35,164 bases of DNA. Origin: Prevotella sp. (lineage in GTDB: Bacteria > Bacteroidota > Bacteroidia > Bacteroidales > Bacteroidaceae). The notes under the pieces were generated by a model. The model saw only the letters and a list, made by a program, of their open reading frames with translations, was not told the DNA's origin and did not search any database. How positions within the stretch are numbered: the first letter of the stretch is position 1; each line of letters opens with the position of its first letter. Made by a program: the position numbers and the translations under genes. Below are positions 1,928 to 35,164 of this stretch, piece by piece. The stretch is taken from positions 1 through 35,164 of the forward strand of contig JAFYYV010000038.1 of assembly GCA_017557405.1 (NCBI GenBank), in the 5' to 3' direction.

Positions 1928-2932
1928 ATGAAATATGTAGGAATACAAACCCAGATTCATCGCAACAACACGATGAGTATCGTGTTGTTGCTGATGTTCC
2001 CATTGATTATATTGGGAACCATTTGGGTGTTTCTTGCTTTGTTGGGACTCTTTGGAGGTGGTGAATACGATGAGTATGGCAACGTTGTCGTTTCCACCGA
2101 TTGGAATACGGTGAATTCGTATTTCATAAAGACGATTCCGTGGGTGATTATCTGTGTAGGCATTTGGTTTGCTATTGCCTATTTCTCCAATACGTCAATG
2201 GTACGTCGAGCCGTGGGTGCACGTCCGTTGGAGCGGCGTGAGAATCCTCGCGTGTACAACATTGTGGAGAACCTTTGCATGACGTGCAACATGGATATGC
2301 CGAAAATCAACATCGTTGATGATGCTCAATTGAACGCATTTGCCAGTGGAATCGATAAGAACAGCTATACTGTGACTGTTACAACGGGATTGTTGCAATT
2401 ACTCGATGATGAAGAATTGGCGGGTGTCATCGGACACGAACTGACACATATCCGCAACCGCGACACAAGGTTGCTTATCACAAGCATTGTCTTTGTGGGT
2501 ATTGTATCAACAGTCATGACGTTGGCAGTTCAGATGATTCGCCATGTGATGGTGTTCGGCCGATATGAGCGTAGCGATCGTAACGGGCGCGGACAGGGAC
2601 TCTCGTTCATCTTGATTCTGCTCGTGGCAGTAGTATGCTCCATCATCGCTTACATATTCACGTTGATGACACGTTTTGCTATCTCTCGAAAACGTGAGTA
2701 TATGGCCGATGCGGGTGGAGCTGAGCTCTGCGGAAACCCGTTAGCTTTGGCTTCGGCTTTGCGTAAGATCTCGGCCAATCCAGGTTTGGGACAAACACAA
2801 CGAGAGGATGTTGCCCAGTTGTTCATCATTCATCCTCAGAAACTCAGTTCAGGCTTCCAAGACTTCATGAGTTCACTTTTCAGTACTCACCCAGATACAG
2901 AAAAACGAATACAGATATTGGAGCAATTCTAA
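1928..2932 (+). CDS. M48 family membrane metalloprotease (HtpX-like)
   Basis: This 334-residue integral membrane protease has the zinc motif HELTH (in VIGHELTHIRNRDTR, about residues 163-177) and a downstream EYMADAGG segment that supplies the third zinc-binding glutamate. Two N-terminal membrane segments (about residues 19-42 and 69-87) precede the catalytic domain, and two more lie near residues 186-204 and 223-246. The family degrades misfolded membrane proteins, with the active site facing the cytoplasm in E. coli HtpX. It closely follows lemA with an 8-base gap and ends in a strong terminator, so the two form an operon. The C-terminal STHPDTEKRIQILEQF is typical of the family. Length and motif content appear intact. 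Confidence 0.93.
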   Translation: MKYVGIQTQIHRNNTMSIVLLLMFPLIILGTIWVFLALLGLFGGGEYDEYGNVVVSTDWNTVNSYFIKTIPWVIICVGIWFAIAYFSNTSMVRRAVGARPLERRENPRVYNIVENLCMTCNMDMPKINIVDDAQLNAFASGIDKNSYTVTVTTGLLQLLDDEELAGVIGHELTHIRNRDTRLLITSIVFVGIVSTVMTLAVQMIRHVMVFGRYERSDRNGRGQGLSFILILLVAVVCSIIAYIFTLMTRFAISRKREYMADAGGAELCGNPLALASALRKISANPGLGQTQREDVAQLFIIHPQKLSSGFQDFMSSLFSTHPDTEKRIQILEQF

Positions 2933-2937
2933 TAAAA

Positions 2938-2972
2938 GCCGCTTTTGAATCCTTCAAAAGCGGCCTTTTTTC
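2938..2972 (+). terminator. Intrinsic terminator after the lemA-M48 operon
   Basis: A perfect 12-base inverted repeat, GCCGCTTTTGAA and TTCAAAAGCGGC, with a three-base loop is followed by TTTTTTT. It begins a few bases after the stop codon. Confidence 0.95.
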
Positions 2973-2998
2973 ATTATAATATAAATAGGATTTCTGTC

Positions 2999-3108
2999 AG
3001 AGACCATCAATGACGTTGTCAAAGACCACAAATGAGGCGGTCAAAGCTATGCAATGACACGATGAAAGCTATGCAATGAGACGGTCAAAGACCATCAATG
3101 ACAAAAAC
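2999..3108. repeat. 22-base periodic dyad array, locus 1 (five units)
   Basis: Five consecutive 22-base units start at 2999, 3021, 3043, 3065 and 3087. Each has a 15-base conserved core followed by a variable 7-base linker. Units 1, 2 and 5 carry the AAAGACCATCAATGA type core and units 3 and 4 carry AAAGCTATGCAATGA. Including the preceding TC, most cores form an imperfect dyad with TCA at one end and TGA at the other. The array fills the space between the terminator of the M48 gene and the stop codon of the convergent aldo/keto reductase gene. It has no ORF and does not match a named repeat family that I recognise. Confidence 0.85.
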
Positions 3109-3128: not shown

Positions 3129-4538
3129 TTATTCCTCCGCCAAATCCAAACCTTGTTTCAGTCTCTCCACAAACTCGTCGATACGATGGAGTTCGTATGG
3201 TATGCGGATGTTTTGTGGACAGTGTGATTCGCATTGATGGCAGCCGATACAATGGCTTGCCTGTCTCAATTTGGGAACACTGTGGTCTTGTCCGATGAGG
3301 AACTGTCGGCGGAATTTCCGATAGTTGGGGTCTTGGTTGTCGTTGGGAAGAGTACCTTCGTTCTTACATTTATTATAATGTACGAAGATGCCAGGTATAT
3401 CCACCCCAAACGGGCAGGGCATGCAGTATTTGCAGTCGTTGCAAGGAATGTTCTCCAATCCTACGATTTTCCGAGCGATTTCAGTTTGCAGATATTCTTG
3501 TTCCTCCTGAGTCAAAGGTTGCAACGGGCAATACGACAATAGATTGTCTTTCAGGTGCTCCATGTAAGTCATTCCGCTCAATACGGTCAGCACACCCTCG
3601 GGTGTTCCAGCATAGCGGAAAGCCCATGAAGCCACCGATTTTTCGGGGTTACGCGTCTTGAGTTCCTTGGCAATATATTGTGGGAGTTTCGACAGTCGTC
3701 CTCCAAGCAGAGGTTCCATAATGACGGCAGGAATGCCTTTCTTTTGGAGTTCATCATATAGATAGCGAGCGTCGGTATTACTGTCATTGATCTCGTCAGC
3801 ATAGTCCCAATCGAGGTAGTTCAGTTCTATTTGCACGAAATCCCATTGATATTTGTCGTGGTTTTCGAGCAGGTGGTCAAACACGGCAATGTCGCCATGA
3901 TATGAGAATCCCAAGTTTCGGATTCGTCCTGCTTTCCGCTCCTCCAAGAGGTAGTCGAGCATTCCATTGTTGATGTAGCGGTTGTTGAATTCCTCAATTC
4001 CGCTTCCCCCGATGGCGTGCAGCAGATAGTAGTCGATGTAATCCACCTGCAGTTCCTTCATCGAATCGTGGTACATCTTGATGGCTTCGTCGCGATTCCA
4101 AACAGCAGGATTGAAATTCGATAGCTTTGTTGCCACGAAATAGTCTTTGCGAGGATGTCTGTGCAGAGCGATTCCCAAACAGCGTTCTGACTGTCCTTGA
4201 CAATAGACGGGAGCGGTATCGAAATAGTTCACACCGTGTTCGATGGCATAATCCACCTGCCGGTTGATCATTTCCTGGTCAAACACATCCTTCCCGTCGT
4301 CTCCAGGAGATGATGGCAGACGCATCATACCATATCCCAAGAGCGACACTTTTTCTTTCGTTTTCGGATTCGTACGATAGGTCATCTTCCCAACGGGGGG
4401 CTCCACCTGTCGACTATAGTCGTCTAGAATATCTTGGCTCGCAGGATTCTTGCATCCTGTCAAAGCGGCTGTGGTGGCTACAGTTCCTGCTCCGAAGAGT
4501 TTCAGGAATTTGCGGCGCGATATGTTTTTGTTGCTCAT
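3129..4538 (-). CDS. Tat-exported aldo/keto reductase with C-terminal 4Fe-4S clusters
   Basis: This 469-residue protein opens with a twin-arginine signal (SRRKFLK, residues 7-13), a hydrophobic stretch and a lipobox-like LTGC with C29, so it may be a Tat-exported lipoprotein. Residues about 50-350 form an aldo/keto reductase barrel with the expected tetrad D107, Y112, K138 and H174. The C-terminus has two iron-sulfur motifs: C366-C369-C372-C375 and C430-C433-C436-C440 followed by proline. The family reduces carbonyls with NAD(P)H or may take electrons from the clusters; the substrate cannot be read from sequence. It is last in the run tatA, tatC, polyferredoxin, reductase, 25 bases after the previous gene, which suggests that it receives electrons from the neighbouring polyferredoxin outside the cytoplasmic membrane (inference). 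A nicotinamide-dependent enzyme outside the cytoplasm would be odd, so a folded, cofactor-loaded Tat client is the likely explanation. Confidence 0.88.
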   Translation of the reverse strand: MSNKNISRRKFLKLFGAGTVATTAALTGCKNPASQDILDDYSRQVEPPVGKMTYRTNPKTKEKVSLLGYGMMRLPSSPGDDGKDVFDQEMINRQVDYAIEHGVNYFDTAPVYCQGQSERCLGIALHRHPRKDYFVATKLSNFNPAVWNRDEAIKMYHDSMKELQVDYIDYYLLHAIGGSGIEEFNNRYINNGMLDYLLEERKAGRIRNLGFSYHGDIAVFDHLLENHDKYQWDFVQIELNYLDWDYADEINDSNTDARYLYDELQKKGIPAVIMEPLLGGRLSKLPQYIAKELKTRNPEKSVASWAFRYAGTPEGVLTVLSGMTYMEHLKDNLLSYCPLQPLTQEEQEYLQTEIARKIVGLENIPCNDCKYCMPCPFGVDIPGIFVHYNKCKNEGTLPNDNQDPNYRKFRRQFLIGQDHSVPKLRQASHCIGCHQCESHCPQNIRIPYELHRIDEFVERLKQGLDLAEE

Positions 4539-14966: not shown

Positions 14967-17460
14967 ACTCATCCTCCTCTGCCTGGCGTTCACGCTGGTG
15001 GCATGCTCCACCACGAAGAACATCCCCGACGACGACCAGCTCTTCGTGGGGCTCTCCAAGATTGAATACGAGAATCCCGAGGGCGGCGCGAAATACAACG
15101 CCAGCGAACGCAAGAACCTCGAGACGGCGAAAGAGGAGGTCGAGGCGGCGTTGGCGACGGCTCCCAACGGGGCGTTGTTCGGCAGCAGCTTCTATCGCAC
15201 CCCCTTCCCCTACGGACTTTGGATTTGGAACGCCTTCTCGAGCAAGGAGGACAAGTTCTCGCGTTGGATGACCGAGTCGTTCGGCAAGCAACCCGTGCTC
15301 ATGAGTTGGGTGAACCCCGAGCTGCGCACGTCGGTCGCCCAGTCGCTCTTGCGCAACTACGGCTATTTCCACAACAAGGTCGACTACGACATCATCCCCC
15401 AACGCAACCCGAAGAAGAGCAAGATTGGCTATCAGATCAAGCTCGGACCGCTGCTCACCATCGATACCGTCTCCTACGTGGGCTTCACCGCTGAGGCCGA
15501 CAGTCTCATCCGAGCCACACAGGACAAGAGCCTCCTGCACGAGGGCGACCCCTTCACGGTGGCTTCGCTCGACGCCGAACGCAACCGCATCTCCAACCTC
15601 TTCCGCAACAACGGATACTATTTCTACCAACCCAGCTACGCCAGCTATCTCGCCGACACGGTGGCGGTTCCTGGCAAGGCGCAACTGCGTTTCCAGCTCG
15701 CCAACGACATCCCCGACGAGGCGCAACGCAAGTGGTATATCGGAAACATCACGGTCAACCTGCGCAAGACGTTCATGCAACCCCTCACCGACAGCATCCG
15801 CCGCCGCTCGTTCACCATCAATTTCAGTGGCAAGAAGTCGCCTTTGCGCACCCGCGTCATCATGGGAAGCATGAAGCTACGCCACCGCCAACCCTATAGC
15901 TACGACAAATATCTCGAGACGGTGAGCGCCATCAATGCCACCGGCCTCTTCTCCATGGTCGACTTCCAGTTTACGCCGCGACCCGCGGCGGCAAGGGAAG
16001 AAGGAATAGGGAATAGGGAAGAAGGTTTATCACTCCTCGAAAACGATTCTACAAACAATCCTTCATCTCTCATCCTTCATCCTTCATCTCTAAGGAGGAC
16101 TTCTCCGAAGGACTCCTTGGATCTTTTAGTCTCCTGCGTCTTCGAGCGCCCCTACGACTTCTATATCGAGTCCAACTTCATCAAGCGCACCATCGGCCGA
16201 CTCGGTCCTGAGCTCAAGATGGGTATCACCAAGCGCAACGCCTTCCGAGGAGGCGAGAAGTTCGACGTCAACGTCCACGGCTCCTACGAGTGGCAGACCC
16301 ACAGCTCCGCCAACGACATGAACTCCTACGAGTACGGCGCCGACGCCAGCATCGAGTTCCCGCGCATCGTAGCCCCCTTCTTTGGCGGCAACCGCACCAG
16401 CCGACGAACCGTCACCAACGCCGACGGCACCACCCGACGCGTTCCGCGACGACTCTTCTATGCGCCTCCCACCACGCTCGCAAAAGTCTCGAGCGACATC
16501 GTGCGACGCCCCGGCTACTACAAGATGCACATCGTGGGGGGCGAATGGACCTACCGCTGGCAGCCCTCTGCCAACAGCCGACACGAGTTCAGCCCCCTCA
16601 CCGTGAAATACCAGTTCATGAACAGCCACACCGAGAAGTTCGATGAGATCATCACCCAGAACCCCTACCTCTTGGCCACCATGAGCGACTATTTCATCCC
16701 ACAGATGCGCTACACCTACATCTACGGCAGCCCCGCCAACCTGCGCAACCCCATCCAGTTGACCGTCACCCTCTCCGAGTCGGGCAACGTCTCCTCACTC
16801 GGCTACATGGCATTCGGACGCAAGTGGAACGAGCGCGACAAGAAGATGTTCAAGAACCCCTACTCGCAGTTCCTGAAGATGGAGACCGACTTCACCAAGA
16901 CGTGGTCGCTATCCACCCATTCCTCCCTCGTGGGACACCTCGGAGCCGGAGTCGTCTACTCCTACGCCAACTCTGAGGCAACACCCTTCAGCGAGCTCTT
17001 CTACGTCGGAGGAGCCAACAGCGTGCGAGCCTTCCCCATACGAGGCATCGGACCTGGCGACTTCCCAGGACTCGACAACCCACAGGCGTCCTACCTCTTC
17101 CAGAACGGCGACGTGAAGTTCCTCGCCAACCTCGAATACCGCCAGCGACTCTTCGGGAACCTCCACGGAGCCCTCTTCCTCGATGCCGGCAACGTCTGGA
17201 ACATCGACCAGCTCAAGCTCGACGACGTCGAGCTCGACAACCTCCTCGCCAACACCCGCTTCAAGCTCAAGAGCATCTTCAACCAAGTGGCTGTCGGTAC
17301 GGGCGTGGGAATCCGCTACGACCTCGACTTCCTCATCCTCCGCCTTGACTGGGGTATCGGCCTCCACGTGCCCTACAAGACCGAGAAGAGCGGCTTCTTC
17401 AACCTCGACAGTTTCCGCCGCTACCAAACCCTCCACTTCGCCATCGGCTACCCGTTCTGA
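14950..17460 (+). CDS. Lipoprotein Omp85-family (BamA/TamA) outer-membrane protein
   Basis: This 836-residue protein begins with a lipoprotein signal (MKQLDRLILLCLAFTLVACS; lipobox LVAC, C19). POTRA-like segments follow, then a C-terminal 16-strand-type barrel that ends in a terminal phenylalanine (YPF). GGANSVRAFPIRGIGPG, about residues 687-703, corresponds to the conserved Omp85 loop region with its key arginine. The ATG at 14950 lies inside the tamB end, giving a 17-base overlap and likely translational coupling. The partner is the TamB-like protein upstream; TamA-like insertion of outer-membrane proteins is the likely role. Residues about 347-392 are an unusual low-complexity insertion made of intergenic-type repeats, located before the barrel. 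No transcription terminator is obvious after the stop. Confidence 0.9.
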   Translation: MKQLDRLILLCLAFTLVACSTTKNIPDDDQLFVGLSKIEYENPEGGAKYNASERKNLETAKEEVEAALATAPNGALFGSSFYRTPFPYGLWIWNAFSSKEDKFSRWMTESFGKQPVLMSWVNPELRTSVAQSLLRNYGYFHNKVDYDIIPQRNPKKSKIGYQIKLGPLLTIDTVSYVGFTAEADSLIRATQDKSLLHEGDPFTVASLDAERNRISNLFRNNGYYFYQPSYASYLADTVAVPGKAQLRFQLANDIPDEAQRKWYIGNITVNLRKTFMQPLTDSIRRRSFTINFSGKKSPLRTRVIMGSMKLRHRQPYSYDKYLETVSAINATGLFSMVDFQFTPRPAAAREEGIGNREEGLSLLENDSTNNPSSLILHPSSLRRTSPKDSLDLLVSCVFERPYDFYIESNFIKRTIGRLGPELKMGITKRNAFRGGEKFDVNVHGSYEWQTHSSANDMNSYEYGADASIEFPRIVAPFFGGNRTSRRTVTNADGTTRRVPRRLFYAPPTTLAKVSSDIVRRPGYYKMHIVGGEWTYRWQPSANSRHEFSPLTVKYQFMNSHTEKFDEIITQNPYLLATMSDYFIPQMRYTYIYGSPANLRNPIQLTVTLSESGNVSSLGYMAFGRKWNERDKKMFKNPYSQFLKMETDFTKTWSLSTHSSLVGHLGAGVVYSYANSEATPFSELFYVGGANSVRAFPIRGIGPGDFPGLDNPQASYLFQNGDVKFLANLEYRQRLFGNLHGALFLDAGNVWNIDQLKLDDVELDNLLANTRFKLKSIFNQVAVGTGVGIRYDLDFLILRLDWGIGLHVPYKTEKSGFFNLDSFRRYQTLHFAIGYPF
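15988..16125 (+). repeat. In-frame heptamer-rich insertion within the Omp85 gene
   Basis: A stretch of about 138 bases differs sharply from the flanking GC-rich coding sequence. It holds two direct heptamers GGAATAG (16003-16016), four heptamers of the type TTCATCY/CTCATCC (16062-16089), and an imperfect palindrome near 16092-16118 with arms AAGGAG and CTCCTT. It encodes a serine- and asparagine-rich loop and keeps the reading frame. It looks like an intergenic repeat that entered the gene. Confidence 0.65.
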
Positions 17461-17588: not shown

Positions 17589-17676
17589 AAAGATAATTCT
17601 TAATGTTGTCAAAGACCATCTTTGACCTGCTCATTGCATAGCTTTTAGCCCGTCATTAGTGGTCTTTCGCACAGGT
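17589..17676. repeat. 22-base periodic dyad array, locus 2 (four units, changing orientation)
   Basis: Units of 22 bases begin at 17589, 17611, 17633 and 17655. The second contains the fully palindromic core TCAAAGACCATCTTTGA. The third and fourth read as reverse complements (TCATTGCATAGCTTT and TCATTAGTGGTCTTT) of the two core flavours seen at locus 1, still separated by a 7-base linker. The first unit is degenerate. Confidence 0.75.
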
Positions 17677-17758: not shown

Positions 17759-17990
17759 TGCAACATGCAACATTAAGCACCTTCCACATGTGCAGAAGTG
17801 TCCTCTCTACCTATAAGTTATTATAATATATAATAAATTATATATTATAATAAAATTAGTATTATTACACTCCATTAATTTTTACCCAATCAAATCTGTT
17901 AATTTAAAACACAAATTTCATCTGAATAATATGGAAACACCTTAATGTTGCATGTTGCATGTTGCATGTTGCGTTTTTGGGGTGTTTCCA
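17759..17990. repeat. Heptamer/inverted-repeat element, copy 1
   Basis: A 19-base perfect inverted repeat (17759-17777 and 17941-17959) bounds about 200 bases. The left end has GCAACAT heptamers, and the right end has four ATGTTGC heptamers (17945-17972), the reverse complement. The right end is itself enclosed by a 10-base inverted repeat, TGGAAACACC (17932-17941) and GGTGTTTCCA (17981-17990). Inside lies a block from 17774 to 17825 that is shared with the element at 35109-35160 (38 of 52 bases by eye). No transposase is present. It could be a MITE-like element or a structured regulatory element. Confidence 0.7.
17818..17853. repeat. AT-only 17-base palindrome inside the heptamer element
   Basis: TTATTATAATATATAAT and ATTATATATTATAATAA are perfect reverse complements separated by AA. 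The sequence could extrude as a cruciform or fold as an RNA hairpin. It lies directly after the conserved CTACCTATAAG block. Confidence 0.85.
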
Positions 17991-27033: not shown

Positions 27034-27121
27034 CATTTTGTCATAGCATAGCTTTGACCGTCTCATATGCCATCTTTGACCTTGTCAAAGCATAGCTTTA
27101 ACCGACTCATTGCATAGCTTT
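27034..27121. repeat. 22-base periodic dyad array, locus 3 (four units, in a leader)
   Basis: On the minus strand four 22-base units run from 27121 down to 27034, with boundaries at 27100, 27078 and 27056. Cores include AAAGCTATGCAATGA, AAAGCTATGCTTTGA, AAAGATGGCATATGA and AAAGCTATGCTATGA. TAAAGCTATGCTTTGA is an almost clean palindrome. The array lies between the probable promoter at 27148 and the start codon at 26996, so it would be transcribed as part of the leader. Confidence 0.82.
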
Positions 27122-27147
27122 GGCAAATTTGTTTGCCATTTATCTTG

Positions 27148-34715: not shown

Positions 34716-34995
34716 CGAAAAATTTGATTAAGTGAGGACAGAATAAATAAATTTATTATGTCGAACGTGAAAATTTATTCAAAACCGAGCGAAAAATCAA
34801 CTTAAATATACCACTTACAATTTGAAACCCTTTTCCAATCTCGTTTTTCAGCTCCCGTATTTTGGCATTTTCCGTCCAAAAATCCTTGAATTCGCTCATT
34901 TGGTGAGTTCCTTTTGCCATTTTTCGCCCTGTTTTCGCCCTCTACACCCCCGTTTTTCACTCCGTTTTTTACCACTTACGATTTGTAACTTTGTC
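34716..34995. other. AT-rich intergenic stretch, no gene recognised
   Basis: A 62-codon open frame at 34822-35010 has no domain and runs into the repeat array, so I do not call it. T-rich sequences occur but no terminator or promoter can be supported. Confidence 0.55.
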
Positions 34996-35073
34996 AAAGA
35001 CCATCTTTGAGCCAGCCAAAAACCACAAATGAATGTCTTAAAGCTATGCAATGACAGGATTGAAGATGGTCGG
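34996..35073. repeat. 22-base periodic dyad array, locus 4 (three units and a partial fourth)
   Basis: Units begin at 34996, 35018 and 35040, each 22 bases. The first has the palindromic core TCAAAGACCATCTTTGA also seen at locus 2; the second is AAAAACCACAAATGA; the third is AAAGCTATGCAATGA. A degenerate fourth (GAAGATGGTC) follows at 35062 and leads into the heptamer element. Confidence 0.78.
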
Positions 35074-35084
35074 TGGGGGCAATT

Positions 35085-35164
35085 GCTACATGCTACATGC
35101 TACATGCTACATTAAGGTACCTTAGCATGTGCAAAAAGCGCCCCTCTACCTATATGTTATTATA
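35085..35164. repeat. Heptamer element, copy 2 (cut by the window edge)
   Basis: Four perfect direct heptamers GCTACAT (35085-35112) are followed by a palindrome TAAGGTACCTTA and a block that matches copy 1 from TAAG through CTACCTATATGTTATTATA. The window ends exactly where copy 1 has its AT-only palindrome, so the element probably continues to the right. Confidence 0.75.

Follow-up and report, generated by a model that had tools for sequence, protein, structure and literature searches.

The closest published system that we found is, in our judgement, the BrickBuilt MITE of Porphyromonas gingivalis, a member of the Bacteroidales. According to the accessible part of its description (PMC4596501), BrickBuilt is an intergenic element that occurs in many copies (19 in ATCC 33277) and consists of a leader, tandem short repeats and a tail. 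Its 23-nt unit is present as 1 to 22.8 direct repeats of one sequence per element and its ends are IS5-like; as far as this part of the paper goes, there is no internal transposase and the element is absent from Rfam (PMC4596501). The same text mentions 22-nt tandem repeats that had been reported earlier for strain W83, without locations (PMC4596501). REP sequences and BIMEs are, in the available sections of their description (PMC2817692), extragenic palindromic sites that number more than 100 in a genome, alternate in orientation and form clusters.

The window, i.e. the whole stretch of 35,164 nucleotides that was analysed, is contig 26 of the genome G000 (3.56 Mb, 54 contigs), which belongs to a rumen-type Prevotellaceae. 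Array 1 (2997..3101, no strand assigned) consists of five 22-bp units of the form TCA-N11-TGA-N5, whose starts at 2997, 3019, 3041, 3063 and 3085 are exactly 22 bp apart. The original prediction had recognized the five units and their exact period, but placed the limits at 2999 and 3108 and divided each unit into a 15-base core and a 7-base linker; the better cut is a 17-bp unit TCA-N11-TGA, which encloses an 11-bp word, followed by a 5-bp linker. TCA opens four of the five units and TGA opens unit four. The unit centres read ACCAT, ACCAC, CTATG, CTATG and ACCAT. They do not strictly alternate between two flavours, as had been proposed, and 34 distinct words were found in 85 perfect-frame units of 418 kb. 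The three further loci that had been assigned to the same family are arrays as well, again without a strand: array 2 (17609..17669) has three units, the third of which is degenerate, array 3 (27041..27123) has four and array 4 (34994..35054) three. The motif TCANNGMNNNKCNNTGA occurs six times in the window, compared to 0.27 expected from 100 shuffles, and at 226 sites in its own genome, compared to 5 for the reversed pattern.

Array 1 lies between two convergent genes. The upstream ORF (1928..2932, plus strand), for which relatives of the translation were found, ends 64 bp before the array and is taken by us to be an HtpX-like (M48 protease-like) gene; it is followed by a hairpin and a T run (2938..2971, plus strand) that by eye resembles a terminator and precedes the array. 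The ORF that lies 27 bp beyond the array (3129..4538, minus strand) presumably encodes an aldo/keto-reductase-like protein. In the genome G261, the gap between the htpX and reductase genes (L090 2770-4050) contains arrays with other words and an extra coding stretch, which we assume to resemble a D-Ala-D-Ala dipeptidase.

Like BrickBuilt, as portrayed in the accessible text, the arrays occur in Bacteroidales, are intergenic and exist in many copies; an arm-repeat-arm layout is found here in an armed subset only. In contrast to the 23-nt repeat there, the period here is 22, the words are interchangeable, and the armed form usually has six units; likewise, the IS5-type terminal inverted repeats GAGACCTTTGCA contrast with TTGTCA-type ends. 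The clusters resemble REP/BIME, as far as the available sections describe them, in being mosaics of near-palindromic intergenic units, and differ in that they have neither a GTAG-type tag nor a tie to RAYT, and in the fixed 22-bp lattice on which their 17-bp units are arranged. Operator and partition-site arrays (for example sopC and iterons) are also tandem dyads of regular spacing; each such system uses a single sequence at a small number of loci, whereas many words and dispersed arrays are found here. CRISPR arrays combine a repeating frame with variable inserts, with near-identical repeats of more than 20 bp and spacers of similar length. Here, by contrast, the constant part is TCA plus TGA, i.e. 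6 bp per 22, the linkers have 5 bp and the words vary. We noticed no description of the 22-bp frame in Prevotella in the literature searched, to which subscription papers mostly did not belong. We therefore place the family within a known kind of element, dispersed intergenic mosaic repeats. Bacterial dispersed repeats are usually recognized by a conserved sequence, whereas here it is the spacing pattern that is conserved, so that the family would tend to escape similarity searches across species. With moderate confidence, we interpret the arrays as MITE/BIME-like dispersed intergenic elements whose phased half-sites would bind a putative dimeric DNA-binding protein.

In 418 kb of G000, 26 arrays were found, which extrapolates to roughly 220 per genome. 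In this sequence, pairs of TCA-N11-TGA frames occur 52, 36, 21, 12 and 5 times at spacings of 22, 44, 66, 88 and 110 bp, respectively, and any other spacing (range 17-119) occurs once each among the top 15 listed. Four to six units are present in 40 of the 61 arrays of G000 and G261. The conserved part is the frame TCA-N11-TGA-N5 at 22 bp; the 11-bp words and the 5-bp linkers are conserved much less. The units of G000 (118) and those pooled from the other species (108) have similar position profiles. In both, the base before TCA and the base after TGA are mostly C or G, positions 4 and 12 are almost only A or T, position 6 is seldom T and position 10 seldom A. The G077 clade has a G+C content of 29% at positions 4 and 12, compared to at most 9% in G000, G261, G284 and a mixed set, and it obeys the A/T rule, like the C/G rule for linker ends, only weakly; this counts against our interpretation. 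Within words, base pairing exceeds the shuffled level for positions 5-11 and 6-10 but not for 3-13 and 4-12, and falls below it for 7-9. The share of half-sites taken up by the ten commonest half-words is highest in G000 (77%), followed by the G077 clade (66%) and G261 (57%). The arrays are intergenic: none of 27 lies within a predicted ORF, with ORFs covering about 91% of the sequence, and in four the overlap with the edge of an ORF is limited to 2-25 bp. A period of 22 bp puts TGA in all three frames of both strands within three units; this arithmetic consequence of the period may be incidental.

The frame recurs in related genomes with different words, among them G261, G284 and G141. Counting frame pairs only, G000 has 278 (0 in the reversed control), G261 332 (0), G284 149 (0) and G141 96 (4), followed by G038 (63), G077 (47), G028 (35), G225 (29), G364 (27), G275 (20), G363 (18), G085 (17), G243 (12) and G301 (11). 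Of the 398 genomes examined in this genus, 14 thus have at least 10 pairs, compared to 3 in the reversed control. These three control values are 42, 26 and 23, which means that a single tandem locus can yield at least 10 pairs; the listed words of G363 are nearly uniform, and its count may come from one such locus. In an order-wide sample of 392 other genomes, two of which are from the same genus, the maximum is three frame pairs. As far as sampled, the family therefore appears to be confined to one genus of Prevotellaceae. In viral contigs, the exact 17-mer occurs in two stretches, neither of which contains an array. The words form a species-level vocabulary, and the frame alone is common to all: many array-bearing species have words of their own (G284 TTTAACTGAAA, G028 GGAGATACTCC, G225 CTACGGCCTAA, G077 TCACGCCGAGA), and G364 has words in common with G000. 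A RecA match was obtained for 28 of 30 chosen genomes, and the resulting tree contains 28 genomes, 12 of them array-bearing. On the best tree these 12 do not form one clade and six changes are needed, a value that 13 of 500 shuffles also reach; well supported branches force at least two changes, on a tree whose support is weak and whose bootstrap has not settled. The array-bearing species are thus scattered on the RecA tree, which may alternatively reflect one origin followed by losses. For further study, the 14 genomes with at least 10 pairs, the richest of which contain hundreds, offer natural replicates.

The same two arms, about 100 bp long on the left and about 150 bp on the right, flank ten arrays of G000, G261 and G364. 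This armed element, a frequent form of the family, is mostly 375-387 bp long; a left arm containing CAATCTAGA is followed by 22-bp units, usually six in number, and then by the right arm, with TTGTCA/TGACAA-type motifs near the ends. By eye on the alignment, the ends are ...ACAAAnnnnTTGTC and ...TTGACAAA. Nine of the ten arrays measure 151 bp (six units) between the array start and the right-arm CGGAA, and the remaining one 129 bp (five units). The right-end pattern has 40 sites in the genome, compared to 3 in the control. A left arm was sought within 900 bp of 30 of the 40 sites; both arms are present at 25 of the 30 loci, in two of which the left arm matches weakly (E 0.008 and 0.02), and five are without a left arm. 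The lengths of the 25 two-armed loci are 352-439 bp, 20 of them at 374-386 bp, and these 20 copies align over 390 columns. In these copies, TCA/TGA is perfect in 74 of 120 units and at least five of the six bases are kept in 100 of 120, an imperfection that speaks against our interpretation. The copies are non-coding (longest closed ORF 25-48 aa, compared to a shuffled mean of 45.7) and show the general traits of MITEs: they are short, non-coding, dispersed and transposase-free (20 copies of 375-387 bp; both arms at 25 of 30 loci). Among six loci with armed elements or arrays, all outside the window, none has an Rfam match above the gathering score. A target-site duplication that is clean or consistent was not seen by eye in the flanks of the examined right-end loci; a single G261 insertion has sharp borders by eye, where no more than TTC is present on both sides.

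A profile of the right arm matches G141 (E 2.6e-14), G038 and G275 beside recA (1.7e-4) and a second G038 contig (3.4e-4); among 79 htpX loci of other species its best E is 0.0014. For the left arm, the best match outside G000, G261 and G364 (E 0.06) is not significant, although CAATCTAGA is recognizable there by eye. Both this result and the search for a transposase and an autonomous copy, which found none, count against our interpretation. The arrays of the window show no arm match up to E 10 and are the bare form of the family; they share words with the armed element and have a similar end motif (TTTTG-TCA ... TGA-CAAAA).

Words have been replaced in place while the frame was kept. Three orthologous loci with four units each were compared among the closely related genomes G038, G275 and G077, with a conserved palindrome setting the register. 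The pooled identity is 3862/4175 (93%) and 3381/3699 (91%) for the outer flanks, 61/66 for the palindrome, 63/72 (88%) for the frame, 562/701 (80%) for the arms (gap columns excluded), 71/132 (54%) for the words and 27/60 (45%) for the linkers, with the register unchanged. The word identity is 36% and 43% at two loci and 82% at the third, so that rewriting is not uniform. The first four units of six armed G000/G364 copies gave pairwise mismatches of 0.078 for the frame, 0.298 for words and 0.217 for linkers, with the left (0.184) and right (0.229) arms between frame and words. The third orthologous locus and two further comparisons point the other way and weaken our interpretation: in the three closest armed copies, words (0.040) hardly differ from the frame (0.037), and in the G261 pair L042/L170, the word mismatch (0.164) is scarcely above that of the arms (0.12-0.13). 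The frame could alternatively be kept because the source lineage is young, and not as a consequence of present binding. Arrays of the G077 clade often abut the conserved palindrome AAATTCTCTAGAGAATTT, which occupies the place of one 22-bp unit (L214, L215 and L216, near 1000-1120).

A dimeric protein is suggested by the exact 22-bp phase, the inverted TCA/TGA half-sites, the class-level base preferences and a frame conserved above its surroundings. The building block would be an 8-bp half-site (TCA plus five variable bases), and half-sites of alternating orientation would place a dyad axis every 11 bp and repeat the pattern every 22 bp, i.e. every two turns. The frame would be kept if a dimeric protein reads the TCA/TGA half-sites along one DNA face; this protein may contact TCA/TGA and follow DNA shape elsewhere in the unit. 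Arrays of dimeric-protein sites on one face, as originally predicted, are thus still the best mechanistic reading; binding is deduced from the arrays themselves, and the search for a binder came up empty. Dispersal, end motifs, common arms and lineage-specific presence argue for a mobile, non-autonomous element. Both readings would be linked if the binder is the mobilizer: it would most likely be a transposase or recombinase moving the elements, or else a host architectural protein. Words would change through tandem duplication and conversion between arrays. The family makes it possible to ask what rewrites tandem repeats in place, and which protein tolerates a change of letters but not of phase.

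It is possible, albeit unlikely, that the arrays are BIME-like sites of host chromosome architecture, i.e. phased arrays of about 90-130 bp past gene ends at which a topology protein (DNA gyrase, for example) would wrap or cut the DNA, or to which a nucleoid protein would bind. The 22-bp period, the four to six units in most arrays, and the alternation of G+C-rich and A/T-rich positions are consistent with this possibility, as is the binding of gyrase to E. coli BIME-2 reported in the available text of PMC2817692. Intergenic placement and conserved location would also fit. Synteny with G261 covers positions 208-34722 of the window, and for seven of the nine G000 arrays with a syntenic G261 interval, a G261 array is found in the same interval. 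In these pairs, unit order is unlike and most words are different (by eye); one pair has AAGACCACAAA in common. In a stricter set of 36 intervals, three contain arrays in both genomes, two in G000 only and one in G261 only (Fisher p 0.005). After gap matching, however, 465 of 5000 permutations reach the observed sharing, which is then not significant. Five of 12 G261 arrays sit in intervals that are array-free in G000; such differences in presence between syntenic genomes speak for our preferred interpretation. In the window, the G261 interval corresponding to array 2 has no array, a 7.7-kb stretch being present there. At 27.0-27.2 kb, where the flanks align well, each genome has an array that the other lacks: the position of array 3 is array-free in G261, whose own array in this interval lies at a distance of about 100 bp. 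In array 4, the altered first bases of two units (CCA, TTA) are identical to those of two units of the G261 array, which argues that some arrays were inherited. Further points against architectural sites are the lack of a general need, with only 14 of the 398 same-genus genomes reaching 10 frame pairs, and the lack of enrichment in convergent gaps (9/22 compared to 25/102, p 0.19). For this last comparison, gene orientation was taken from greedy ORF calls, which misassigned at least two neighbours in the window (at 17609 and 27041).

Somewhat less probable is a structured nucleic acid, i.e. a small RNA or single-stranded DNA hairpin element whose units pair mutually in a transcript or cruciform. 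In 20 G000 copies, units 2 and 4 covary as reverse complements (7.90/11 within a copy compared to 5.80 between copies, permutation p 0.001); none of the other 14 unit pairs falls below 0.05. In 14 copies of the G077 clade, from which one near-identical copy (G275 recA) had been dropped, units 1 and 2 are coupled (7.00 compared to 5.25, 0/1000 permutations), as are units 1 and 4 (5.86 compared to 4.68), with a p of 0.007 that fails correction for 36 pairs. The listed array places comprise at least 15 loci and 10 distinct arrays. A protein-only model does not need these couplings, which therefore count against our preferred explanation. They may come from paired strands or from template switching at inverted repeats; moreover, the coupled pairs differ by clade and the G000 copies form about two subfamilies, hence few events. 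Neighbouring units lie numerically above the baseline in reverse-complement similarity in the G077 clade (5.38 compared to 4.30) and the mixed set (5.70 compared to 4.10), both with armed copies still included; neighbours in bare arrays of G000 and G261, by contrast, are directly similar and show no reverse-complement excess. The consensus fold is weak (only -10.7 kcal/mol over 390 columns), and no Rfam family was recognized in the six loci. For strings of small RNA hairpins, the second option of the original prediction, half-words were compared within the unit, across the linker and mirrored, with comparisons between arrays as baseline. They show no clear excess in G000, G261, G284 and G141, and are numerically above the baseline in the G077 clade (2.41-2.55 compared to 1.91) and within units of G364 (2.14 compared to 1.48). 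RNA hairpins formed by single units are not supported as a rule.

A more speculative and quite unlikely extension of the preferred reading is an address code. The TCA/TGA lattice would be fixed, and the variable letters would be a species vocabulary rewritten in place, with the register kept, because a fast-evolving dimeric binder or a set of paralogues co-evolves with the arrays. The logic would be comparable to that of PRDM9 and its hotspots.

We consider it improbable that the arrays are a neutral minisatellite growing by replication slippage. Neighbouring units have the same word more often than in a pool shuffle, both in G000 (24/92 compared to 9.7) and in G261 (38/109 compared to 6.6), and L019 contains three identical units in succession; a shuffle within arrays is exceeded in G261 only (0/1000, compared to 85/1000 in G000). 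Slippage accounts for part of the structure, but not for the common frame: it explains neither why several lineages have the same frame filled with unrelated words, nor the usual six-unit block of armed elements, nor a frame conserved above the arms.

That the arrays are REP sequences mobilized by RAYT, a Y1 transposase, is extremely improbable: they are dispersed intergenic near-palindromes of species-specific sequence and G000 has one weak Y1_Tnp match (24.9 bits; 351-aa ORF, L025 1216-2271; the only match in this genome), but no GTAG-type tag is seen in the units, Y1_Tnp occurs in 7 of 13 searched genomes with at least 10 frame pairs and in 18 of 32 others, and its absence from G261, which is 99% complete and has the most frame pairs, rules out a standard RAYT as mobilizer there, unless an assembly gap hides the gene.

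Other repeats were observed as well. Two stretches of the window, 17759-17972 and 35084-35164, belong to a different dispersed element, which is AT-rich and has tandemly repeated heptamers close to its ends (TGCAACA / ATGTTGC, TGCTACA); similar stretches are present in L005, L009, L016, L019, L023 and L050. Short palindromic repeats of the TAAAATAATTTATTTTAC type lie by some G261 arrays (L174 about 15990-16117, L172 4898-5111, L012 14124-14213), and a similar stretch is found in G000. A further dispersed repeat of about 200 bp adjoins an array at L013 5114-5347 and has several partial copies in G261.
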